Shown here: piece by piece, positions 39,882 to 63,620 of the stretch
Numbering within the stretch: position 1 is the first letter of the stretch
Layout: every line of letters begins with the position of its first letter
Assembly (NCBI RefSeq): GCF_041261205.1
Contig: NZ_JBGCCH010000018.1
Location: forward strand, 62,001 to 126,000
Source of the DNA: Catenulispora sp. MAP5-51
GTDB taxonomy: Bacteria; Actinomycetota; Actinomycetes; Streptomycetales; Catenulisporaceae
Length of the DNA: 64,000 nt
Reading direction: 5' to 3'
Program-made: the position numbers and the translations under genes
The notes under the pieces: model-generated
Database searches by the model: none
The model's input: the letters and a program-made list of their open reading frames with translations, nothing else
What the model was told of the DNA's origin: nothing

Positions 39882-39918
39882 CAGAGGCGCACCGGTTCTC
39901 AGAACCGGTGCGCCTCTG
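39882..39918 (+). terminator. Strong 18-bp stem-loop after the E2 gene
   Basis: CAGAGGCGCACCGGTTCT (39882-39899) is followed by one base and its exact reverse complement (39901-39918). No T-run follows. It ends 14 bases before the ATG of the next gene, so it may also mask that gene's ribosome site. Confidence 0.75.
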
Positions 39919-54246: not shown

Positions 54247-55347
54247 ATGCCGGGGACATCAGGGCCACTTCAGGCACTGTTTCTGCGGTTCGGGCTGCCC
54301 GCGCCGACCGCTTTCCGCCTCGTGGACAGCGGACTTCTCAACCGGTCCTATCAGATTACGTCCACGGATCGGCGCTACTTCCTCAAGCACTATCTGCCCT
54401 GGCGGGGAGTGGGCTCCGGGCTGCCGGACGCCCACGGCCGAAGGCGCTCAGCTGCTCAGACACTGCGCTGGCAGCACGAAGCCGTGATCCGATTACAGGC
54501 GGCGGGTCTCCCCGCAGTCGCCCCGCTCAGGGACCTCCGCGGCCGTACGGTCGCATATGTAAGGGGACGCCCCTTTGCGGTGTTCCCCTGGAACGACGGC
54601 GTGCACCGCTACGGCAAACATATGCAGGAAATCGACGCGTACCGCCTGGGCACCCTGCTCGCCGATATCCACACGGGTCTGACCCGAGTCCTTCCCCGGG
54701 TCCCCCAACCGCTGTTCGTCCCGACCACCTCCCAGCGCCGTGCCGTCGCCGAGGCCGAGCAGCTCCTCGCGGTGGTCGAGACCGGTCCGGGCCGGGACGA
54801 GATGGACGCACTGTCCGCGTACCGATTACGGGAACGCTTAGCGCTCATCCCCAAGGTCGCGCACCTCCGGCCGGCACCGGACGCCGTGGGGACCGTCGGA
54901 TACATCCACGGAGACTTCCACGCCGGGAACGTCATGTGGTCGGCTCTGGAGCCCGGAAGCAGGGTGACAGCGGTCGTGGACTGGGAGAAGACGGCCGTCG
55001 CGCCGTGTGGGGACGAAGTGGTGAGCACCGCTTTGGTGTTCTTCACCGGGGAGTACTCGGGTCAGCTCGACCTGGATCTGGTGCGTGCGTACATCGGGGG
55101 CTACGCCGCGGCGCGCCCCGAGTTCTCCGAACGGGAACTCACCGACTCCGTACGCCGCGTCTGGTGGGAGCGCCTCACCGACTTCTGGATCCTGACATGG
55201 CACTACCGCCACGCCGACCACCGGGCGGACTCGCTGTTCCCCGCCACCGCGGCCCTGGTGCCATGGTGGACGGAGAACTACGCGAAGGTCCTGGACGCCT
55301 TCCTGGAGGGCGCCGCGTCGGCTACAGGTACGGTCCCGCGCCGCTGA
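54247..55347 (+). CDS. Aminoglycoside phosphotransferase family kinase
   Basis: The 366-residue protein has the APH/choline-kinase fold: N-lobe SGLLNRSYQITSTDRRYFLKHY, catalytic loop GYIHGDFHAGNVMW with Asp and Asn, and VVDWEKTAVAP for Mg. Family members phosphorylate antibiotics, homoserine, sugars or lipids; the substrate cannot be predicted. Its end overlaps the bpa 3' end by 26 bases. Confidence 0.85.
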   Translation: MPGTSGPLQALFLRFGLPAPTAFRLVDSGLLNRSYQITSTDRRYFLKHYLPWRGVGSGLPDAHGRRRSAAQTLRWQHEAVIRLQAAGLPAVAPLRDLRGRTVAYVRGRPFAVFPWNDGVHRYGKHMQEIDAYRLGTLLADIHTGLTRVLPRVPQPLFVPTTSQRRAVAEAEQLLAVVETGPGRDEMDALSAYRLRERLALIPKVAHLRPAPDAVGTVGYIHGDFHAGNVMWSALEPGSRVTAVVDWEKTAVAPCGDEVVSTALVFFTGEYSGQLDLDLVRAYIGGYAAARPEFSERELTDSVRRVWWERLTDFWILTWHYRHADHRADSLFPATAALVPWWTENYAKVLDAFLEGAASATGTVPRR

Positions 55348-55936: not shown

Positions 55937-56935
55937 TTAGCTGCTGCTGCGTCCCGCCGCCACGTCCAGCACGACCTTGCCGACGTGTCCGCTCTCCTCG
56001 ACCACCCGGTGCGCCTGGTCTGCCTGCTCCACCGGCAGCACCCGGTCGACGACGACCCGGAAACGGCCCTGCTCGATCAGCGGCCACACCGCTTCCCGCG
56101 CCGCCGCGACGATCTGCGCTTTCTCTTCAGACGGCCGCGCGCGCAGTGTGGTTGCACTGACGCTCGCCCGCTTGCGCAGCAGGGTGTTCAGGTTCACCTC
56201 GCCCTTGACGCCGCCCTGCAGACCGATGATCACCAGCCGGCCGCCCACCGCCAGCGCCTGGACGTTGCGGTCCAGGTAGGCGGCTCCCATGTTGTCCAGG
56301 ATCACGTCCACACCGCGGCCCTCGGTGACCTCCGCCACCCTTTCCACGAAGTCCTCGTCCCGGTAGTTCACCGCGACGTCGGCGCCGAGCTCGCGGCAGG
56401 CCTTCAGCTTCGCGGCGCTGCCGGCCGTGACGATCACCCGCGCGCCGAGCTCGTGCGCGAGCTGGATCGCGGTGGTCCCGATGCCGCTGGAGCCGCCGTG
56501 GACCAGCAGCGTCTGGCCGGCCTGGAGCCCGGCGAGCATGAAGACGTTCGACCAGACGGTGCACACCGTCTCCATCAGGCCGCCGGCGTCCAGCGCGCTC
56601 ATGCCCTCCGGCAACGGCGCGACCTGCCCCGCCGGCACCGCGACGAGCTCGGCGTACCCGCCGCCGGCCAGCAGCGCGACCACCTCGTCCCCGGCCACGA
56701 ACCCGCCGACCCCGGCGCCGACCTCGACGACCCGCCCGGAGCACTCCAGCCCCGGATAGGGCGAGGCTCCCGGCGGCGGCGTGTAGAAGCCCATGCGCTG
56801 CAGGATGTCCGCCCGGTTCACCGCGGTCGCGGTGACCTGGATCAGCACCTCGCCGGCCGCCACGACCGGATCGGGCACCTGTGCCCACACCAACTGCTCC
56901 GGTCCGCCCGGCTCCGCGATCGTGATGGCACGCAT
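55937..56935 (-). CDS. NAD(P)H:quinone oxidoreductase (zinc-free MDR, Qor/PIG3 type)
   Basis: The 332-residue oxidoreductase has the start MRAITIAEPGGPEQLVW, FYTPPPGASPYPGLECSG, LVHGGSSGIGTTAIQLA for NADPH binding, and lacks zinc-binding Cys. It reduces quinones or acts on electrophiles. It starts at ATG 56935 and ends 15 bases before bpa, so the two are probably one transcript. Confidence 0.9.
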   Translation of the reverse strand: MRAITIAEPGGPEQLVWAQVPDPVVAAGEVLIQVTATAVNRADILQRMGFYTPPPGASPYPGLECSGRVVEVGAGVGGFVAGDEVVALLAGGGYAELVAVPAGQVAPLPEGMSALDAGGLMETVCTVWSNVFMLAGLQAGQTLLVHGGSSGIGTTAIQLAHELGARVIVTAGSAAKLKACRELGADVAVNYRDEDFVERVAEVTEGRGVDVILDNMGAAYLDRNVQALAVGGRLVIIGLQGGVKGEVNLNTLLRKRASVSATTLRARPSEEKAQIVAAAREAVWPLIEQGRFRVVVDRVLPVEQADQAHRVVEESGHVGKVVLDVAAGRSSS

Positions 56936-57065
56936 GACTTCACCCTAGCGAGACCCGTGCACAAGGGACGGATCCGGGCGGGAGGACGGCTCTGGGCGGG
57001 ACGCCTGACCACGACTGGGGCCGGTGGGGACCTTGAGGCGCGATTGTTCCCCCATTCGGTCGACA

Positions 57066-57364
57066 GCGCGTAAAAACCGGCCAGTAGCACTTGGCACCGA
57101 CCTTGATCGGTCGTAGAAAGAAAGCAAGGCCCCGCGACCTCCCAACTCAAAGAGAAGGAATGGTTTGGCACAAGGCCGCTCGACCTCGACATCGATTCGG
57201 GAACCCACGCAAAGACCGACCCCTTAAGGGGCCAGCCAGCCAGGCAGACGGAGAGCAACAGCGAGGACCTGGAAGGCGACTACGGCGAACAGACGCTTGT
57301 TAACTCGTCCTCGGTGTCATTCATAACAGCGGTGCCGCTTGCGCAGCGGCACCGCTGACCTTTT
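57066..57364 (+). ncRNA. Candidate small RNA in a 450-bp gene-free stretch
   Basis: The gap 56936-57385 has no convincing protein frame and is more A-rich than its surroundings. It contains a small hairpin (ACCGA and TCGGT arms near 57096-57111), the perfect palindrome CCCCTTAAGGGG (57220-57231), and ends in a strong hairpin plus T-run at 57328-57364. This looks like a structured RNA transcribed rightward. It does not resemble tmRNA or RNase P RNA. A 6S/Ms1-like RNA is one possibility. The 5' end is a guess; no clear promoter was found. Confidence 0.4.
57328..57364 (+). terminator. Rho-independent terminator
   Basis: AGCGGTGCCGCT (57328-57339), loop TGCGC, and AGCGGCACCGCT (57345-57356) form a 12-bp stem followed by GACCTTTT. 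The T-run is on the plus strand, so it ends rightward transcription; leftward it may still serve the tetR gene. Confidence 0.8.
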
Positions 57365-57385
57365 CCCAGAATGTCCCGAAGGGGA

Positions 57386-57973
57386 TTATCTCTGTGAATC
57401 CGCGGCGGCCGCGACAAGTGCGTCGGCGAGTTTGTGCGCCGCCTCGTCGTCGAGCGGCCGGTGGCCGACCAGGCCGCGATACCAGAGCAGGCCGTAGGCC
57501 AGATCGGTGAGGAAGTCCAGGTCGGCGTCGGCCGAGACCTCGGCGCGGGCCGCGCCGCGTTCGAGCAGGACCCGCAGCGTCGCCCGCCGGCTGGCGAGGA
57601 AGTCGTGGAAGGGGCGCGCGGACTCGGGGTTCTCGATCGAGGCCACCATCATGCTCTTCAGCTCGCTGAGGACCTTGGGGTCCTCGGACTGCTGGAAGGT
57701 CGCCTTGAAGAACTCCGTCAGGTCGGCCGCCAGCGTGCCGGTGTCGGGCAGCGGGATGGTGTGCTGCGCGCGCGTCCCGACGGCCTCGGCGATCACCGCG
57801 GCCTTCGACGGCCACCAGCGGTAGACGGTCTGCTTGCCGACTCCGGCGTCGCGGGCCAGGCGCTCGATCGTGAAGCCCTCGTAGCCGACCTCCTGCAGCA
57901 GGCCGATCGCGGCGTCGATGATCGCCTCTCGGGCCGCCTCGTTGCGGCGTCTTCCGGTGTGCGGGCGCTCCAT
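57386..57973 (-). CDS. TetR-family transcriptional regulator
   Basis: The 195-residue repressor has the helix-turn-helix GFTIERLARDAGVGKQTVYRWW and a C-terminal TetR_C-like domain. ATG 57973 keeps the operators upstream; a frame to 58045 would cover them and is rejected. Divergent from the SDR gene with two 25-bp inverted repeats between, so it controls both. Confidence 0.9.
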   Translation of the reverse strand: MERPHTGRRRNEAAREAIIDAAIGLLQEVGYEGFTIERLARDAGVGKQTVYRWWPSKAAVIAEAVGTRAQHTIPLPDTGTLAADLTEFFKATFQQSEDPKVLSELKSMMVASIENPESARPFHDFLASRRATLRVLLERGAARAEVSADADLDFLTDLAYGLLWYRGLVGHRPLDDEAAHKLADALVAAAADSQR

Positions 57974-57992
57974 GCCCGGCAGCCTAGCGGAT

Positions 57993-58045
57993 TTGTCTAG
58001 ACGTGTCGTCTCGGCAATACTTGTCGAGACGGATCGTTTCGACAA
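57993..58045. promoter_or_regulatory. Two TetR operators between the regulator and the SDR gene
   Basis: Site 57993-58017 (TTGTCTAGAC-N5-GTCTCGGCAA) and site 58021-58045 (TTGTCGAGAC-N5-GTTTCGACAA) are 10-5-10 inverted repeats with 8/10 and 9/10 arm matches. Their centres are 28 bp apart. Confidence 0.8.
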
Positions 58046-58071
58046 AGAGTCATCCGACGGAGGGGACGGGT

Positions 58072-58812
58072 ATGTCCACCGAGCAGAAGTTCAGCGGCAA
58101 GACCGTGTACGTGATCGGCGCGAGCCACGGGATCGGCGAGGCGATCGCCGGCGCGTTCGTCGCCGACGGCGCCGACGTCCTGATCACCGGCCGCACCAAA
58201 GAGCGCCTGGACGCGGCCGCGGAGCGCATCGGCCACCCGGTGCGCGTCTTCCAGTCGGACGCGCGGCGGCAGGAGGACGTGGACACGCTCTTCGCGGCCG
58301 CGGGTTCCAAGATCGACCACCTCGTGCTCGCCGTCAGCGGCGGCATGGTGGGGCTGGGCACGCTGGCCGAGCTCACCGACGAGGCCCTGCGCGAGGGCTT
58401 CGAGGGCAAGGTGTTCGCCCAGCTCAGGATCCTGAAGGCGGCGCTGCCACACCTGGCCCCGGACGCCTCGGTGACCTTCATCGGGGCCGGCAGCTCGCGC
58501 GCGGCGTTCCCCGGCACCACCGCTCTGGCGGCGGCCAACGGCGCGCTGGACGCGGCGGTCCGCCCGCTGGCCGCCGAGCTGGCCCCCGTCCGGGTGAACG
58601 CGGTCTCCCCCGGCGTGATCGACACCGCCTGGTGGCACCCGCTGGGCGAGCAGCGCGACGGGTTCATGGAGCAGCAGGCCGCCGCCACTCCGGTGGGACG
58701 CGTCGGGCAGCCTCAGGACATCGCCGACGCGGTGCTCTTCCTGGCCGGGAACGGCTTCACGACCGGCGTGGTGCTGGACGTGAACGGCGGGACCACGCTG
58801 GCCAGGAGCTGA
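58072..58812 (+). CDS. SDR-family protein lacking the catalytic Tyr and Lys
   Basis: The 246-residue protein has a good Rossmann start (VYVIGASHGIGEAIAGAF) and end (VRVNAVSPGVIDTAWW). At the catalytic position YxxxK it reads Leu152-xxx-Asn156 (FPGTTALAAANGAL), and the NAG motif is SGGM. Ser141/142 remain. So classic SDR catalysis is unlikely unless another residue takes over. Strong ribosome site GGAGGGGACGG before ATG 58072. Controlled by the divergent TetR. Confidence 0.85.
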   Translation: MSTEQKFSGKTVYVIGASHGIGEAIAGAFVADGADVLITGRTKERLDAAAERIGHPVRVFQSDARRQEDVDTLFAAAGSKIDHLVLAVSGGMVGLGTLAELTDEALREGFEGKVFAQLRILKAALPHLAPDASVTFIGAGSSRAAFPGTTALAAANGALDAAVRPLAAELAPVRVNAVSPGVIDTAWWHPLGEQRDGFMEQQAAATPVGRVGQPQDIADAVLFLAGNGFTTGVVLDVNGGTTLARS

Positions 58813-58867: not shown

Positions 58868-59650
58868 TCAGCCGCGCATGATGGCTTCGCACACCGCCAG
58901 CGACTCGCGTGCCCCCAGCGCGACCGCCTCGGCGTACTGCGCGAGCCAGGCGGCCAGCCCTTCCTCCGTGCCGGTCGCGTAGCCGCGGGCGGCGTCCAGA
59001 TACGCCTCGACCCCGAGGTCCACATGCCCGGCCTCGACCACCGCCAGCGACTGCGGGTCCAGGCCGCGTTCGGCCAGGATCAGCCGGGACGCGGCGCGGG
59101 CCAGCAGCCCGTCGCCCCAGCCGAACGGCTCGTTCACCAGCAGCTCGGCGTGCACCGCCGCCGCGACCACCACGGCCGGCACGTCGGCGGCGGCCGGGTC
59201 GCGCAGGTCGTCGGCCAGAGCGGTGAGCACGGCCGCGGCCTCGGGATCGCGCGGCCGTCCCACCCGGTCCTGTTCCAGGTGGCCCGCGGCGGCGAGCAGG
59301 TGCATCCGGGACAGGGCCTGGATCGGGGACCGCTTCCACACCGGCGCGAGCGTGCCCAGCTCGCCGGAGATCCGCAGCGCCCCGCGCAGCAGCCCGGAGC
59401 CGTCCTCGTCGCCGAGGTCGGTGCGGCGGCGGACCTCCTCCAGCGGCCAGTCCGTGCCGGCCTCGCTCAGCGAGCCCAGGGCCGCCGAGGCCCGGGCGCC
59501 GCGCAGCTGCGACTCGGCGGTGACGCGGGCCGACTGGCTGCGCAGGACCTTGTGCTTGCGCACGCGGTCCACCGCTTCGCGGGCGGTCTCCGCGGCCTCG
59601 GCGGCGTTCGGGGCGGCGGCCAGGCGCCGGATCGGGGAGCGGGTGTCCAT
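58868..59650 (-). CDS. Fic/Fido-like protein with degenerate active-site motif
   Basis: The 260-residue all-helical protein contains VHAELLVNEPFGWGDGLLAR (about residues 165-184), which lines up with the Fic motif HPFx(D/E)GNGRxxR. The catalytic His is Glu, GNGR is GDGL, and only PF, G and the last Arg remain. AMPylation is thus unlikely; a non-catalytic or different role is inferred. The rest is not recognised. ATG 59650 has no ribosome site; a -10-like TAGAGT ends 7 bases before it, so it may be leaderless. Confidence 0.6.
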   Translation of the reverse strand: MDTRSPIRRLAAAPNAAEAAETAREAVDRVRKHKVLRSQSARVTAESQLRGARASAALGSLSEAGTDWPLEEVRRRTDLGDEDGSGLLRGALRISGELGTLAPVWKRSPIQALSRMHLLAAAGHLEQDRVGRPRDPEAAAVLTALADDLRDPAAADVPAVVVAAAVHAELLVNEPFGWGDGLLARAASRLILAERGLDPQSLAVVEAGHVDLGVEAYLDAARGYATGTEEGLAAWLAQYAEAVALGARESLAVCEAIMRG

Positions 59651-59664
59651 GCCCGGGACTCTAC

Positions 59665-59678
59665 CTACCGACTGGTAG
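59665..59678. promoter_or_regulatory. Inverted repeat CTACC-N4-GGTAG at the Fic-like gene promoter
   Basis: The perfect 5-4-5 inverted repeat CTACCGACTGGTAG overlaps the edge of a -10-like TAGAGT (minus strand) used by the Fic-like gene. It resembles TetR-type operators of actinomycete fatty-acid genes. Confidence 0.4.
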
Positions 59679-59758
59679 CGGGGACGCCACCCGATCGGAG
59701 GATGCATGGTTGACGCGCCGGGGCGGCGACGTCGAGACTCAGCGCGTACCTGTTTTAT

Positions 59759-59773: not shown

Positions 59774-59837
59774 TCAAGCGCGGCTCCCCTGAGAAGCCCG
59801 CGACTTGTTCCCCTTCCCAGCGCTTGGAGGCCCCGGC

Positions 59838-60815
59838 ATGCGCATCGCCATGGTCGGCAAAGGCGGCAGCGGCAAGACCACGGTCTCGGCCCTTCTGATC
59901 CGGCACCTGTCGGCCGGCGGCCGCCCGGTCGTCGCCGTGGACGCCGACATCAATCAGCACCTCGGAGCGGCGCTCGGCCTGTCCGATGAGCAGGCCGCGG
60001 CCCTGAGCCCGATGTCCGCCCACCTGTCGACGATCAAGGACTACCTGCGCGGCGACAATCAGCTGATCGCGGACGCCGAGTCCATGGTGAAGACCACGCC
60101 GCCGGGACGCGGCTCGCGCCTGCTGCGGCTGGAGGAGGAGAACGTCGTCCACAGCCTGTGCGCAACGCGGCTGGGCGGCGATCTGGAGAACGTCCGGCTG
60201 ATGGTGACCGGTGGGTTCGAGGAGAAGGACCTGGGCGTCTCCTGCTACCACTCCAAGGTCGGCGCCGCCGAGCTCTACCTGAATCACCTTGTCGACGGCC
60301 CCGACGAGTACCTGGTGATGGACATGACCGCGGGCGCGGACGCCTTCGCCTCCGGCCTGTTCACCCGCTTCGACCTGACCTGCCTGGTGGTGGAGCCGAC
60401 CCGCAAGTCGGTGTCCGTCTACCAGCAGTACCGCGAGTACGCCAAGGAGTACGACGTCACCATCCGGGTGGTCGGCAACAAGGTGACCGGCCCGGAGGAC
60501 GTCGCCTACCTGCGCGAGCACACCGGCGCCGACCTCGTGGCCTGCCTCGGCGCCTCGCACTACGTCCGGGCCCAGGAGCAGGGCCGGGACAAGGGCTTCG
60601 ACACCCTTGAGCCGGCGAACCGCACCGCTCTGGCGCGCCTGCAGATGGAAGTGGACACGGTGCCGCAAGACTGGGCCAAGTTCACCCGGCAGGCGGTCCA
60701 CTTCCACCTGAAGAACGCTCAGGCCTGGGGCGACCGCGCGACCGGCGTGGACCTCGGCGCGCAGGTCGACCCGGACTTCGTCATGGGACCGGGAGCGTTC
60801 GTGGCACCGAGCTGA
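59838..60815 (+). CDS. CooC/ParA-like P-loop ATPase
   Basis: The 325-residue ATPase starts MRIAMVGKGGSGKTTVSALL, the deviant Walker A of MinD/CooC/NifH-like proteins, and VVAVDADINQHL for the switch region. DEYLVMDMTAGADAF is Walker B, and VVGNKVTG specifies the nucleotide. CooC-type proteins insert nickel or other metals into enzymes. A Zur-like box upstream would link it to zinc or metal homeostasis (inference). ATG 59838 follows GGAGG. It overlaps the convergent hydrolase by 35 bases. Confidence 0.8.
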   Translation: MRIAMVGKGGSGKTTVSALLIRHLSAGGRPVVAVDADINQHLGAALGLSDEQAAALSPMSAHLSTIKDYLRGDNQLIADAESMVKTTPPGRGSRLLRLEEENVVHSLCATRLGGDLENVRLMVTGGFEEKDLGVSCYHSKVGAAELYLNHLVDGPDEYLVMDMTAGADAFASGLFTRFDLTCLVVEPTRKSVSVYQQYREYAKEYDVTIRVVGNKVTGPEDVAYLREHTGADLVACLGASHYVRAQEQGRDKGFDTLEPANRTALARLQMEVDTVPQDWAKFTRQAVHFHLKNAQAWGDRATGVDLGAQVDPDFVMGPGAFVAPS

Positions 60816-61721: not shown

Positions 61722-62303
61722 CTAGCGGTTGGATTCGATCAGTCGGGAGAACGCGTTGCGCGCCCTCGCCTCGGCCCTGGCGTCGCCGAGGAGCCGGTGC
61801 GCCTGGAAATAGATGAGCATGATCCCGTGCAGGTCGTGGGTGAACTGCTCCGGATCGGCGCCGGCGGCGAAGAAGCCCTCGGCGATCCCGGTCCGGAACA
61901 TCTGCGCCACCGCGTCGTTGAAGTCCAGGTGCATGCGGACCAGGCGGTCCCGCACCGGCCCCGGCTGGTCGTCGTACTCCCAGGCCGCCGAGACGAACAG
62001 GCACTCCGCGGTCCCGTCCCGCGACACCGCCAGCCAGCTCTCGAACAGCGTGGTGATCCGCTTCTCGCCGCGCGGGGCGCACAGCGCGGGCCGCACGACG
62101 TCCTCGACGAACGCCTCGCTGGCGAACTCCAGGACCTGGACCTGCAGCGCCTCCTTGGACTTGAAGTGCGCGAACAGGCCGCTCTTGGACATCCCGGTCC
62201 GCTCGGCGAGCGAGCCGATGGTGAGCGAGGCCAGCCCGCCGGAGGCCGCGACCTCGACCGCGGCTTCCAGGACCTGTCTGCGGGTCTCCTCGCCCTTGCT
62301 CAC
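61722..62303 (-). CDS. TetR-family transcriptional regulator
   Basis: The 193-residue regulator has the helix-turn-helix SLTIGSLAERTGMSKSGLFAHF and a TetR_C_6-like domain with AAWEYDDQPGPVRDRL. The GTG 62303 start is chosen because it directly precedes the conserved SKGEETRRQVLEAA. Its own promoter holds the operator at 62315-62328, so it is likely to repress itself and the downstream hydrolase. Confidence 0.9.
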   Translation of the reverse strand: MSKGEETRRQVLEAAVEVAASGGLASLTIGSLAERTGMSKSGLFAHFKSKEALQVQVLEFASEAFVEDVVRPALCAPRGEKRITTLFESWLAVSRDGTAECLFVSAAWEYDDQPGPVRDRLVRMHLDFNDAVAQMFRTGIAEGFFAAGADPEQFTHDLHGIMLIYFQAHRLLGDARAEARARNAFSRLIESNR

Positions 62304-62314
62304 CCCAGAAAAAT

Positions 62315-62328
62315 AGCACGACCGTTCG
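62315..62328. promoter_or_regulatory. Probable operator in the tetR promoter
   Basis: AGCACGACCGTTCG lies 12 bases upstream of the GTG 62303 and is repeated, base for base, inside the hydrolase gene. Confidence 0.6.
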
Positions 62329-62417
62329 GCGGGCGCGACCGCGAGCCCGTCACTCTCGGCGATCTCAGACCCCCGACACCCTCGACTTCGCCCTCCGACC
62401 GCATCAGACTGGGGCAT

Positions 62418-63620
62418 GTGGCATCCAACCCCGCCACCGTCGGCATCGTGGCCGCCCTGGTCGCCCCGGCGGTCGCGGTGTCCCGCGCCGTCCAGCGGCA
62501 CCGTTTGGCCGGCACGACGGCCGAGCGCGCCGCGTATGCCGCCATGCACGCCGTCGCCCTCGCCGGGCCCCCGCTGCGGGCCGGCCTGACCCCGGACGCC
62601 ACCCGCCGCGCGGCCCGCCACCTGCGGCCGCTGCTCGGCACCGCGGCGCTGGCCTTCAACGACACCGAGCGGAACCTCACCTGGGACGGTGCCGGACAGC
62701 ACCGGCATTCTCAGAACTCCTACGAGCTCTCCACGGCCGCGCTCAAGTCCGGAAGAGTGACCGTCCTCGGACCGGAGGACGTGCACTGCGACAGCGATTC
62801 CTGCATGATCCGCCACGCGGTCGTCGCGCCGATCATCCCGCCGAGCAGCATCGGCGGGATCCGCGACGACGGCGGCAGCACGGCGATCGGCACGCTGTCG
62901 GTCTACAGCTCCAGCACCTCCGTGGCTCTGGTGCGGGCCGTCGGCGAGGTCGCGTACTGGGTCGCCACCCAGATCGAACTGGCGGAGCTCGACCGGTCGC
63001 GAACCCTCCTCATGGAGACCGAACTCAGGGCACTGCGGGCGCAGATCTCGCCGCACTTTGTCTACAACTCGCTCACCGCCATCGCTTCCTTCACGCGCAC
63101 GGATCCGCAGCGCGCCAGGGAGCTCCTCCTGGAGTTCGCGGACTTCACCCGCTACTCGTTCCGCGCGCACGGCGAGTTCACGACGCTCGCCGAGGAGCTG
63201 CGCTGTGTGGACCGCTACCTGTTGCTGGAACGCGCCCGCTTCGGCGAACGCCTCCACGTGACCCTGCGGATAGCCCCTGAGGTGCTTCCTGTAGAGGTTC
63301 CCTTCCTATGCGTACAGCCCATAGTGGAGAACGCAGTACGGCACGGTCTGGAAGGCAAGCCCGGCCCCGGCCACGTCACCATCACCGCCGAGCCGACCCG
63401 GCACCACCACCGGATCACGGTCGCGGACGACGGCGTCGGGATCACCCCGGACATCCTGCGCGACGCCCTCGCCCCGGCCGAGCCGGGCACACGCACCTCG
63501 GTGGGGCTGTCCAACGTCCACGAGCGACTCCGCGCGGTCTACGGGACGGCCTACGGCCTGGCGATCGAATCCCAGCCCGGAGCGGGTACCACTGTGGTGA
63601 TCCGGGTCCCGAGGAAGTAG
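62418..63620 (+). CDS. LytS/YehU-type sensor histidine kinase
   Basis: The 400-residue kinase has an N-terminal hydrophobic helix (near 5-20), a GAF-like region with a Cys pair (HCDSDSCMIRHAVVAPI), the His-kinase motif ISPHFVYNSLTAIASF with phospho-acceptor His, and a HATPase (VENAVRHGLEG, VADDGVGI, SVGLSNVHERL). It lacks the five- to six-helix sensor of typical LytS. GTG 62418 chosen. It pairs with the LytTR response regulator downstream. Confidence 0.85.
   Translation: MASNPATVGIVAALVAPAVAVSRAVQRHRLAGTTAERAAYAAMHAVALAGPPLRAGLTPDATRRAARHLRPLLGTAALAFNDTERNLTWDGAGQHRHSQNSYELSTAALKSGRVTVLGPEDVHCDSDSCMIRHAVVAPIIPPSSIGGIRDDGGSTAIGTLSVYSSSTSVALVRAVGEVAYWVATQIELAELDRSRTLLMETELRALRAQISPHFVYNSLTAIASFTRTDPQRARELLLEFADFTRYSFRAHGEFTTLAEELRCVDRYLLLERARFGERLHVTLRIAPEVLPVEVPFLCVQPIVENAVRHGLEGKPGPGHVTITAEPTRHHHRITVADDGVGITPDILRDALAPAEPGTRTSVGLSNVHERLRAVYGTAYGLAIESQPGAGTTVVIRVPRK

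Follow-up and report, generated by a model that had tools for sequence, protein, structure and literature searches.

A candidate Ms1 RNA gene in Catenulispora, diverged in sequence and displaced from its usual neighbour

What does a gap of 450 bp between two bacterial genes contain, when no supported gene lies in it? The gap (56936-57385) lies in a window of 64,000 nucleotides, part of a 188-kb contig from Catenulispora sp. MAP5-51, which has a genome of 10.9 Mb. It runs from the start of a PIG3 oxidoreductase gene (56935) to the end of a TetR gene (57386). A sequence-only reading had described the stretch as free of genes, which our analysis bears out, and had placed in it a structured plus-strand RNA of up to about 300 nt, possibly of the 6S or Ms1 kind. 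Short ORFs are present within the gap. However, one-base indels between relatives disrupt the reading frames throughout the element, which speaks against a conserved protein frame, named in that reading as evidence against an RNA. An Ms1 gene would conflict with published work. A synteny survey from 2022 found no gap in Catenulispora able to contain Ms1, the gaps with Ms1 synteny being too short; it listed the genus among groups with Ms1 synteny but without Ms1, and tied some losses to small genomes (PMC9130861). Among the best literature matches for Catenulispora with Ms1 or small RNA, this survey alone was on the subject. Based on comparative sequence analysis and on analogy with studied homologues, we think it very likely that the element is the Catenulispora Ms1 RNA gene, homologous to scr3559 of Streptomyces coelicolor and Ms1 of Mycobacterium smegmatis, with a putative role at the RNA polymerase core. 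The features of the locus are collected in Table 1.

Table 1. Features of the candidate Ms1 locus and its surroundings (window coordinates)
Feature	Position	Strand	Basis or remark
PIG3-family quinone oxidoreductase, left neighbour	55937-56935	-	TIGR02824, 455.8 bits
Predicted sigma-70-type promoter: -35 TTGGCA (57091-57096), 17-bp spacer, -10 TAGAAA (57114-57119)	57091-57119	+	conservation
Candidate Ms1 RNA gene	57126-57364	+	about 239 nt; match to model R1 at 57118-57375; 3' end at the T tract
Best-conserved part: ACCCACGC (57203-57210) with CCCC-TTAA-GGGG hairpin (57220-57231)	57203-57231	+	
3' arm of the long hairpin, conserved: GACGCTTGTTAAC	57292-57304	+	matches GACGCTTGGTAAC of Streptomyces Ms1
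Predicted intrinsic terminator: perfect 13-bp stem with a loop of 5 nt, then four T	57327-57364	+	sequence; stem conserved in the genus
TetR-family regulator, inserted, separating Ms1 from its usual 3' neighbour	57386-58045	-	PF00440, PF16859; unmatched in Ms1 loci of other genera
SDR oxidoreductase, second gene of the insertion	58003-58812	+	PF13561; unmatched in Ms1 loci of other genera
SCO3559-type gene (by position), homologous to the first gene after Ms1 in other genera	58868-59707	-	
MinD/CbiA-type ATPase	59805-60815	+	PF01656; 61-63% identity, same place

The identity of the RNA was addressed with covariance models. In S. coelicolor, scr3559/Ms1 lies in the gap beside a HAD-IB hydrolase gene (PMC9130861). 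We recognized Ms1 loci by this position, and took the gaps beside the HAD-IB hydrolase (TIGR01490) in Streptomyces and Actinospicaceae-type relatives, the genus labels being given by kinship; the S. coelicolor sequence itself is not among them. Model R1 was built from 16 such gaps of other genera and from zero Catenulispora sequences. It matches the element over the full model length with 46.7 bits. R1 gave one clear match per genome in all 10 Catenulispora genomes, with E-values of 1e-10 to 5e-14, which are rough because the calibration was shortened. The next best match in these 10 genomes had an E-value of 0.07, and the search thus found no second Ms1 in them. A reciprocal model, R2, built from Catenulispora alone, recovered Streptomyces Ms1. 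In 8 of 15 other genomes its top match at E <1e-3 was the Ms1 gap; it was not significant in the Actinospicaceae-type genomes. Class-wide, R1 found matches in 96 of 198 genomes. A SCO3559-type gene stood in the short flanks of 28 of the best 30 of these loci, and a HAD gene in those of 19 (11 were without HAD). These neighbours show that R1 reports true Ms1 loci. Further R1 loci linked to HAD occur in other families of the class, where the RNAs are longer (about 315 nt).

The window element also shares a series of ordered blocks with the Streptomyces and Actinospicaceae-type gaps: GTA[CG]AAAG, GGCCC.GCGA, ACCCACGC, CGACCC...GGGCCAGCC, GACGCTTG.TAAC and the terminal hairpin. Identity to other Ms1 sequences is about 50%, and several consensus pairs are lost in a sequence-only alignment. 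We consider the homology to Ms1 of other genera, as judged from sequence and structure by R1 and R2, to be well supported but distant. Within the genus the element is easily followed: BLASTN found it in all nine other genomes at 84-96% identity. Identity between about 57070 and 57360 is high, with a steep drop beyond on the 3' side and lower values in the 5' part of the gap. In a collection of named genomes, an exact 21-base pattern of the element matched only records of Catenulispora or Catenulisporales (C. rubra, C. pinistramenti, C. pinisilvae and three MAGs). Outside the genus BLASTN gave no real match; the matches in order-level relatives were short and none lay at Ms1 loci. The covariance search against Rfam that the sequence-only reading had suggested (release 15) returned no relevant match in the window. 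As a control, we scanned a Streptomyces Ms1 locus with the same release and again obtained no match. Thus, absence from Rfam is uninformative on the identity of the RNA, and an Ms1 covariance model could fill this gap in the database. The 6S family of Rfam gave no match up to an E-value of 10 in a lax scan of 56900-57450.

The RNA has a predicted promoter and terminator. In the 10 Catenulispora genomes the -35 hexamer is invariant, the -10 hexamer is nearly so, and the spacer is variable. The -10 hexamer occupies the position that a -10-like TACAAA has before scr3559 in Streptomyces. A promoter scan made no call at the locus because it requires T at the last -10 position. We put the 5' end of the RNA near 57126, to an accuracy of a few bases, by mapping the published 228-nt length of scr3559 on the Streptomyces loci. 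The RNA had previously been drawn from 57066; this start does not hold, because the first of its supposed inner palindromes (CCGACC...GGTCG, 57097-57113) is the spacer between the -35 and -10 boxes and lies outside the predicted RNA. As this palindrome is not conserved in the genus, we rejected it as an RNA element. Upstream of the -35 box lies a stretch conserved throughout the genus, GTAAAAACC.GCCAGTA (57070-57085), and GTAAAG is similarly placed in Streptomyces. It may serve as an UP element or bind a regulator.

At the 3' end, a 12-bp stem with a T-run had been described. The stem is in fact a perfect one of 13 bp (arms 57327-57339 and 57345-57357) and is almost invariant in the genus. The T-run is short: its four T (57361-57364) are separated from the stem by ACC, and the tract is variable and poorly conserved. 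A terminator scan did not call this hairpin. Perfect stems of at least 12 bp with loops of 3-8 are rare, as the window contains one further site (39885-39915), and among ten first-order random sequences with the same dinucleotide make-up nine had none and one had a single stem. The further hairpin lies between genes for a 2-oxoacid dehydrogenase E2-like and a nitrilase-like protein, is preceded by three near-repeats of CACAGGGGTTCATCGACAAA, and is probably a terminator. By sequence prediction, the element has its own housekeeping-sigma promoter, a 3' terminator and a length in the range of about 230-300 nt, as is typical of Ms1.

Folding of the isolated sequence, which had also been suggested as a check, gave a modest signal, with z-scores of -1.3 for 57066-57370 and -2.3 for 57126-57363. 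The strong evidence for the RNA is comparative. ACCCACGC is invariant in all Catenulispora and, apart from the following base, in the alignment of other genera (A1). In the CCCC-TTAA-GGGG hairpin, three of the four pairs are kept in 26 of 26 sequences, and the fourth shows a compensatory change. In the consensus, the ACCCACGC and GACGCTTGTTAAC strands are paired with each other. In a model-based alignment of the 26 sequences, which is itself fitted to the structure, 92.1% of cells pair, compared with 30-36% in slid controls, and the covariation score is 0.305, compared with 0.03-0.06. When the alignment was made from sequence only, 63% of the Catenulispora cells still paired (25-44% in slid controls), and comparison with one Streptomyces sequence showed eight pairs in which both partners had changed. 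Consensus folds and these pair counts predict a long interrupted hairpin flanked by short hairpins near the ends. In published Ms1, a bubble interrupts the long hairpin, short hairpins lie close to the ends, and the promoter is of the sigma-A type (PMC4191392). Likened by description, the predicted Catenulispora RNA resembles M. smegmatis Ms1 and M. tuberculosis MTS2823 in each of these features. It is also similar to scr3559 (Ms1, Str13) in length (about 239 nt predicted, 228 nt published), in conserved blocks and in fold class.

The neighbourhood of the RNA is partly the usual one. The gene at 58868-59707 is 39-55% identical to the one that directly follows Ms1 in 16 of 16 order-level loci, and has the convergent orientation found in Streptomyces. 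A homologue of the MinD/CbiA-type ATPase gene is the second gene after Ms1 in 8 of the 16, and a histidine kinase and a response regulator (61797-63620 and from 63654) match the next genes in four Actinospicaceae-type loci. As these downstream genes are homologous to those that follow Ms1 elsewhere, the 3' side of the locus is retained, and the TetR-SDR pair is an insertion within it. The real start of the SDR gene is probably near 58072. A different gene adjoins the element on its right in two relatives. Thus, compared with scr3559, the 3' genes and their orientation are the same, but the RNA has diverged, two genes have been inserted, the HAD gene does not adjoin and the left neighbour is another gene. 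On the left, the PIG3 gene, which reads away from Ms1, takes the place of the HAD hydrolase, and it does so at all loci of the genus. The HAD hydrolase gene (140645-141490 of the contig) is found on the right of the RNA, at a distance of about 21 kb. A relative, G004, has a similar spacing between HAD and RNA, with the two at 55.2 kb and 77.1 kb.

In four Actinospicaceae-type loci (L055-L058), the orientation of Ms1 relative to HAD is opposite to that in Streptomyces; the RNA has thus been inverted at least once. Farther to the left in the window, ARAGORN reported a 92-nt tRNA-Pro(tgg) on the plus strand (55256-55347), within the 3' end of an APH gene. Rfam has no tRNA there, and the call is probably false.

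Taken together, the genus-free covariance model, the reciprocal model, the ordered blocks, the covariation and the partial synteny support a structured plus-strand RNA of the Ms1 type, in line with the Ms1 half of the initial 6S/Ms1 guess; the 6S half is not supported. The Catenulispora RNA is probably orthologous with scr3559 and with M. smegmatis Ms1. Two other accounts of the gap were already disfavoured. A small RNA or 5' leader that has no kinship with Ms1 and only a chance likeness to it would fit the moderate stability of the single-sequence fold and the lack of a real BLASTN match outside the genus. However, such a likeness would have to yield, in each of the 10 genomes, a match over the full model at the whole-genome E-values given above, together with the result of R2 and the retained 3' neighbours; we regard it as very improbable. 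It is harder still to believe that the stretch codes for a small protein, or that it belongs to the neighbouring genes as an untranslated region or spacer. Its location in a 450-bp gap and the short ORFs would allow for this, but the promoter and terminator read on the plus strand, opposite to the two flanking genes, indels break the frames, and the right-hand gene is not constant.

The function of the RNA leaves more room for doubt. One could imagine a descendant of Ms1 with a changed role, such as 6S-like binding of the holoenzyme, or with other targets. The RNA resembles 6S RNA (ssrS) only in the way that it would work, through a polymerase-binding hairpin that resembles an open promoter; 6S targets the holoenzyme, whereas Ms1 targets the core. 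The degree of divergence and the new neighbours on one side are compatible with a changed role. Nevertheless, the core strands around the bubble are retained and the gene is present in every genome of the genus, and we think such a change quite unlikely. A related idea, that this diverged and relocated Ms1 is a functional variant whose polymerase target or regulation changed with its new neighbourhood, also seems unlikely to us.

Based on studies of its homologues, we propose that the Catenulispora Ms1 acts as follows. The RNA would be transcribed from its housekeeping-sigma promoter and fold so that a short hairpin at each end flanks a long one, which is opened by an internal bubble. In this form it may mimic an open promoter and bind RNA polymerase core that is free of sigma, mainly in late growth and stationary phase. 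The bound RNA could hold or stabilize the polymerase until growth resumes. The S. coelicolor homologue is found on the core in vivo (PMC9130861). It is enriched on RNA polymerase about 310-fold in exponential phase and about 1250-fold in stationary phase, and its association with HrdB is much weaker (PMC11077062). In M. smegmatis, the bubble of Ms1 matters for core binding (PMC4191392). As the central hairpin keeps its conserved strands, the same core-binding role is the most likely one in Catenulispora.

Why, then, was this gene reported as absent? Most likely, the survey (PMC9130861) missed Ms1 because the RNA no longer adjoins HAD. The gap beside HAD in G004 is about 100 bp, which is consistent with the survey's finding of a gap that is too short. 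If our assignment is correct, the published absence in Catenulispora is corrected, and Ms1 is present in a genus with genomes of about 10 Mb. The reported pattern of Ms1 loss rests in part on synteny with HAD, and thus other reported absences merit a search with covariance models. The SCO3559-type gene looks like a better anchor for Ms1 than HAD, judging by the best 30 class-wide matches (28 compared with 19). Additionally, the diverged Catenulispora sequence shows which parts of Ms1 are retained under strong change.

Two observations concern the region before the HAD gene in other loci. In Streptomyces (L059, L061, L063-L068 and L070), a conserved CAAACCCACGCGCC...CCTTACGCCGAATGG lies about 80-100 bases before the HAD domain, and the word ACCCACGCG is common to this block and to Ms1. 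A Catenulispora locus (L054, 4904-4979, minus strand) and an Actinospicaceae-type locus (L057, 3588-3664, minus strand) each carry a 6C RNA (RF01066) immediately 5' of the HAD-IB gene.
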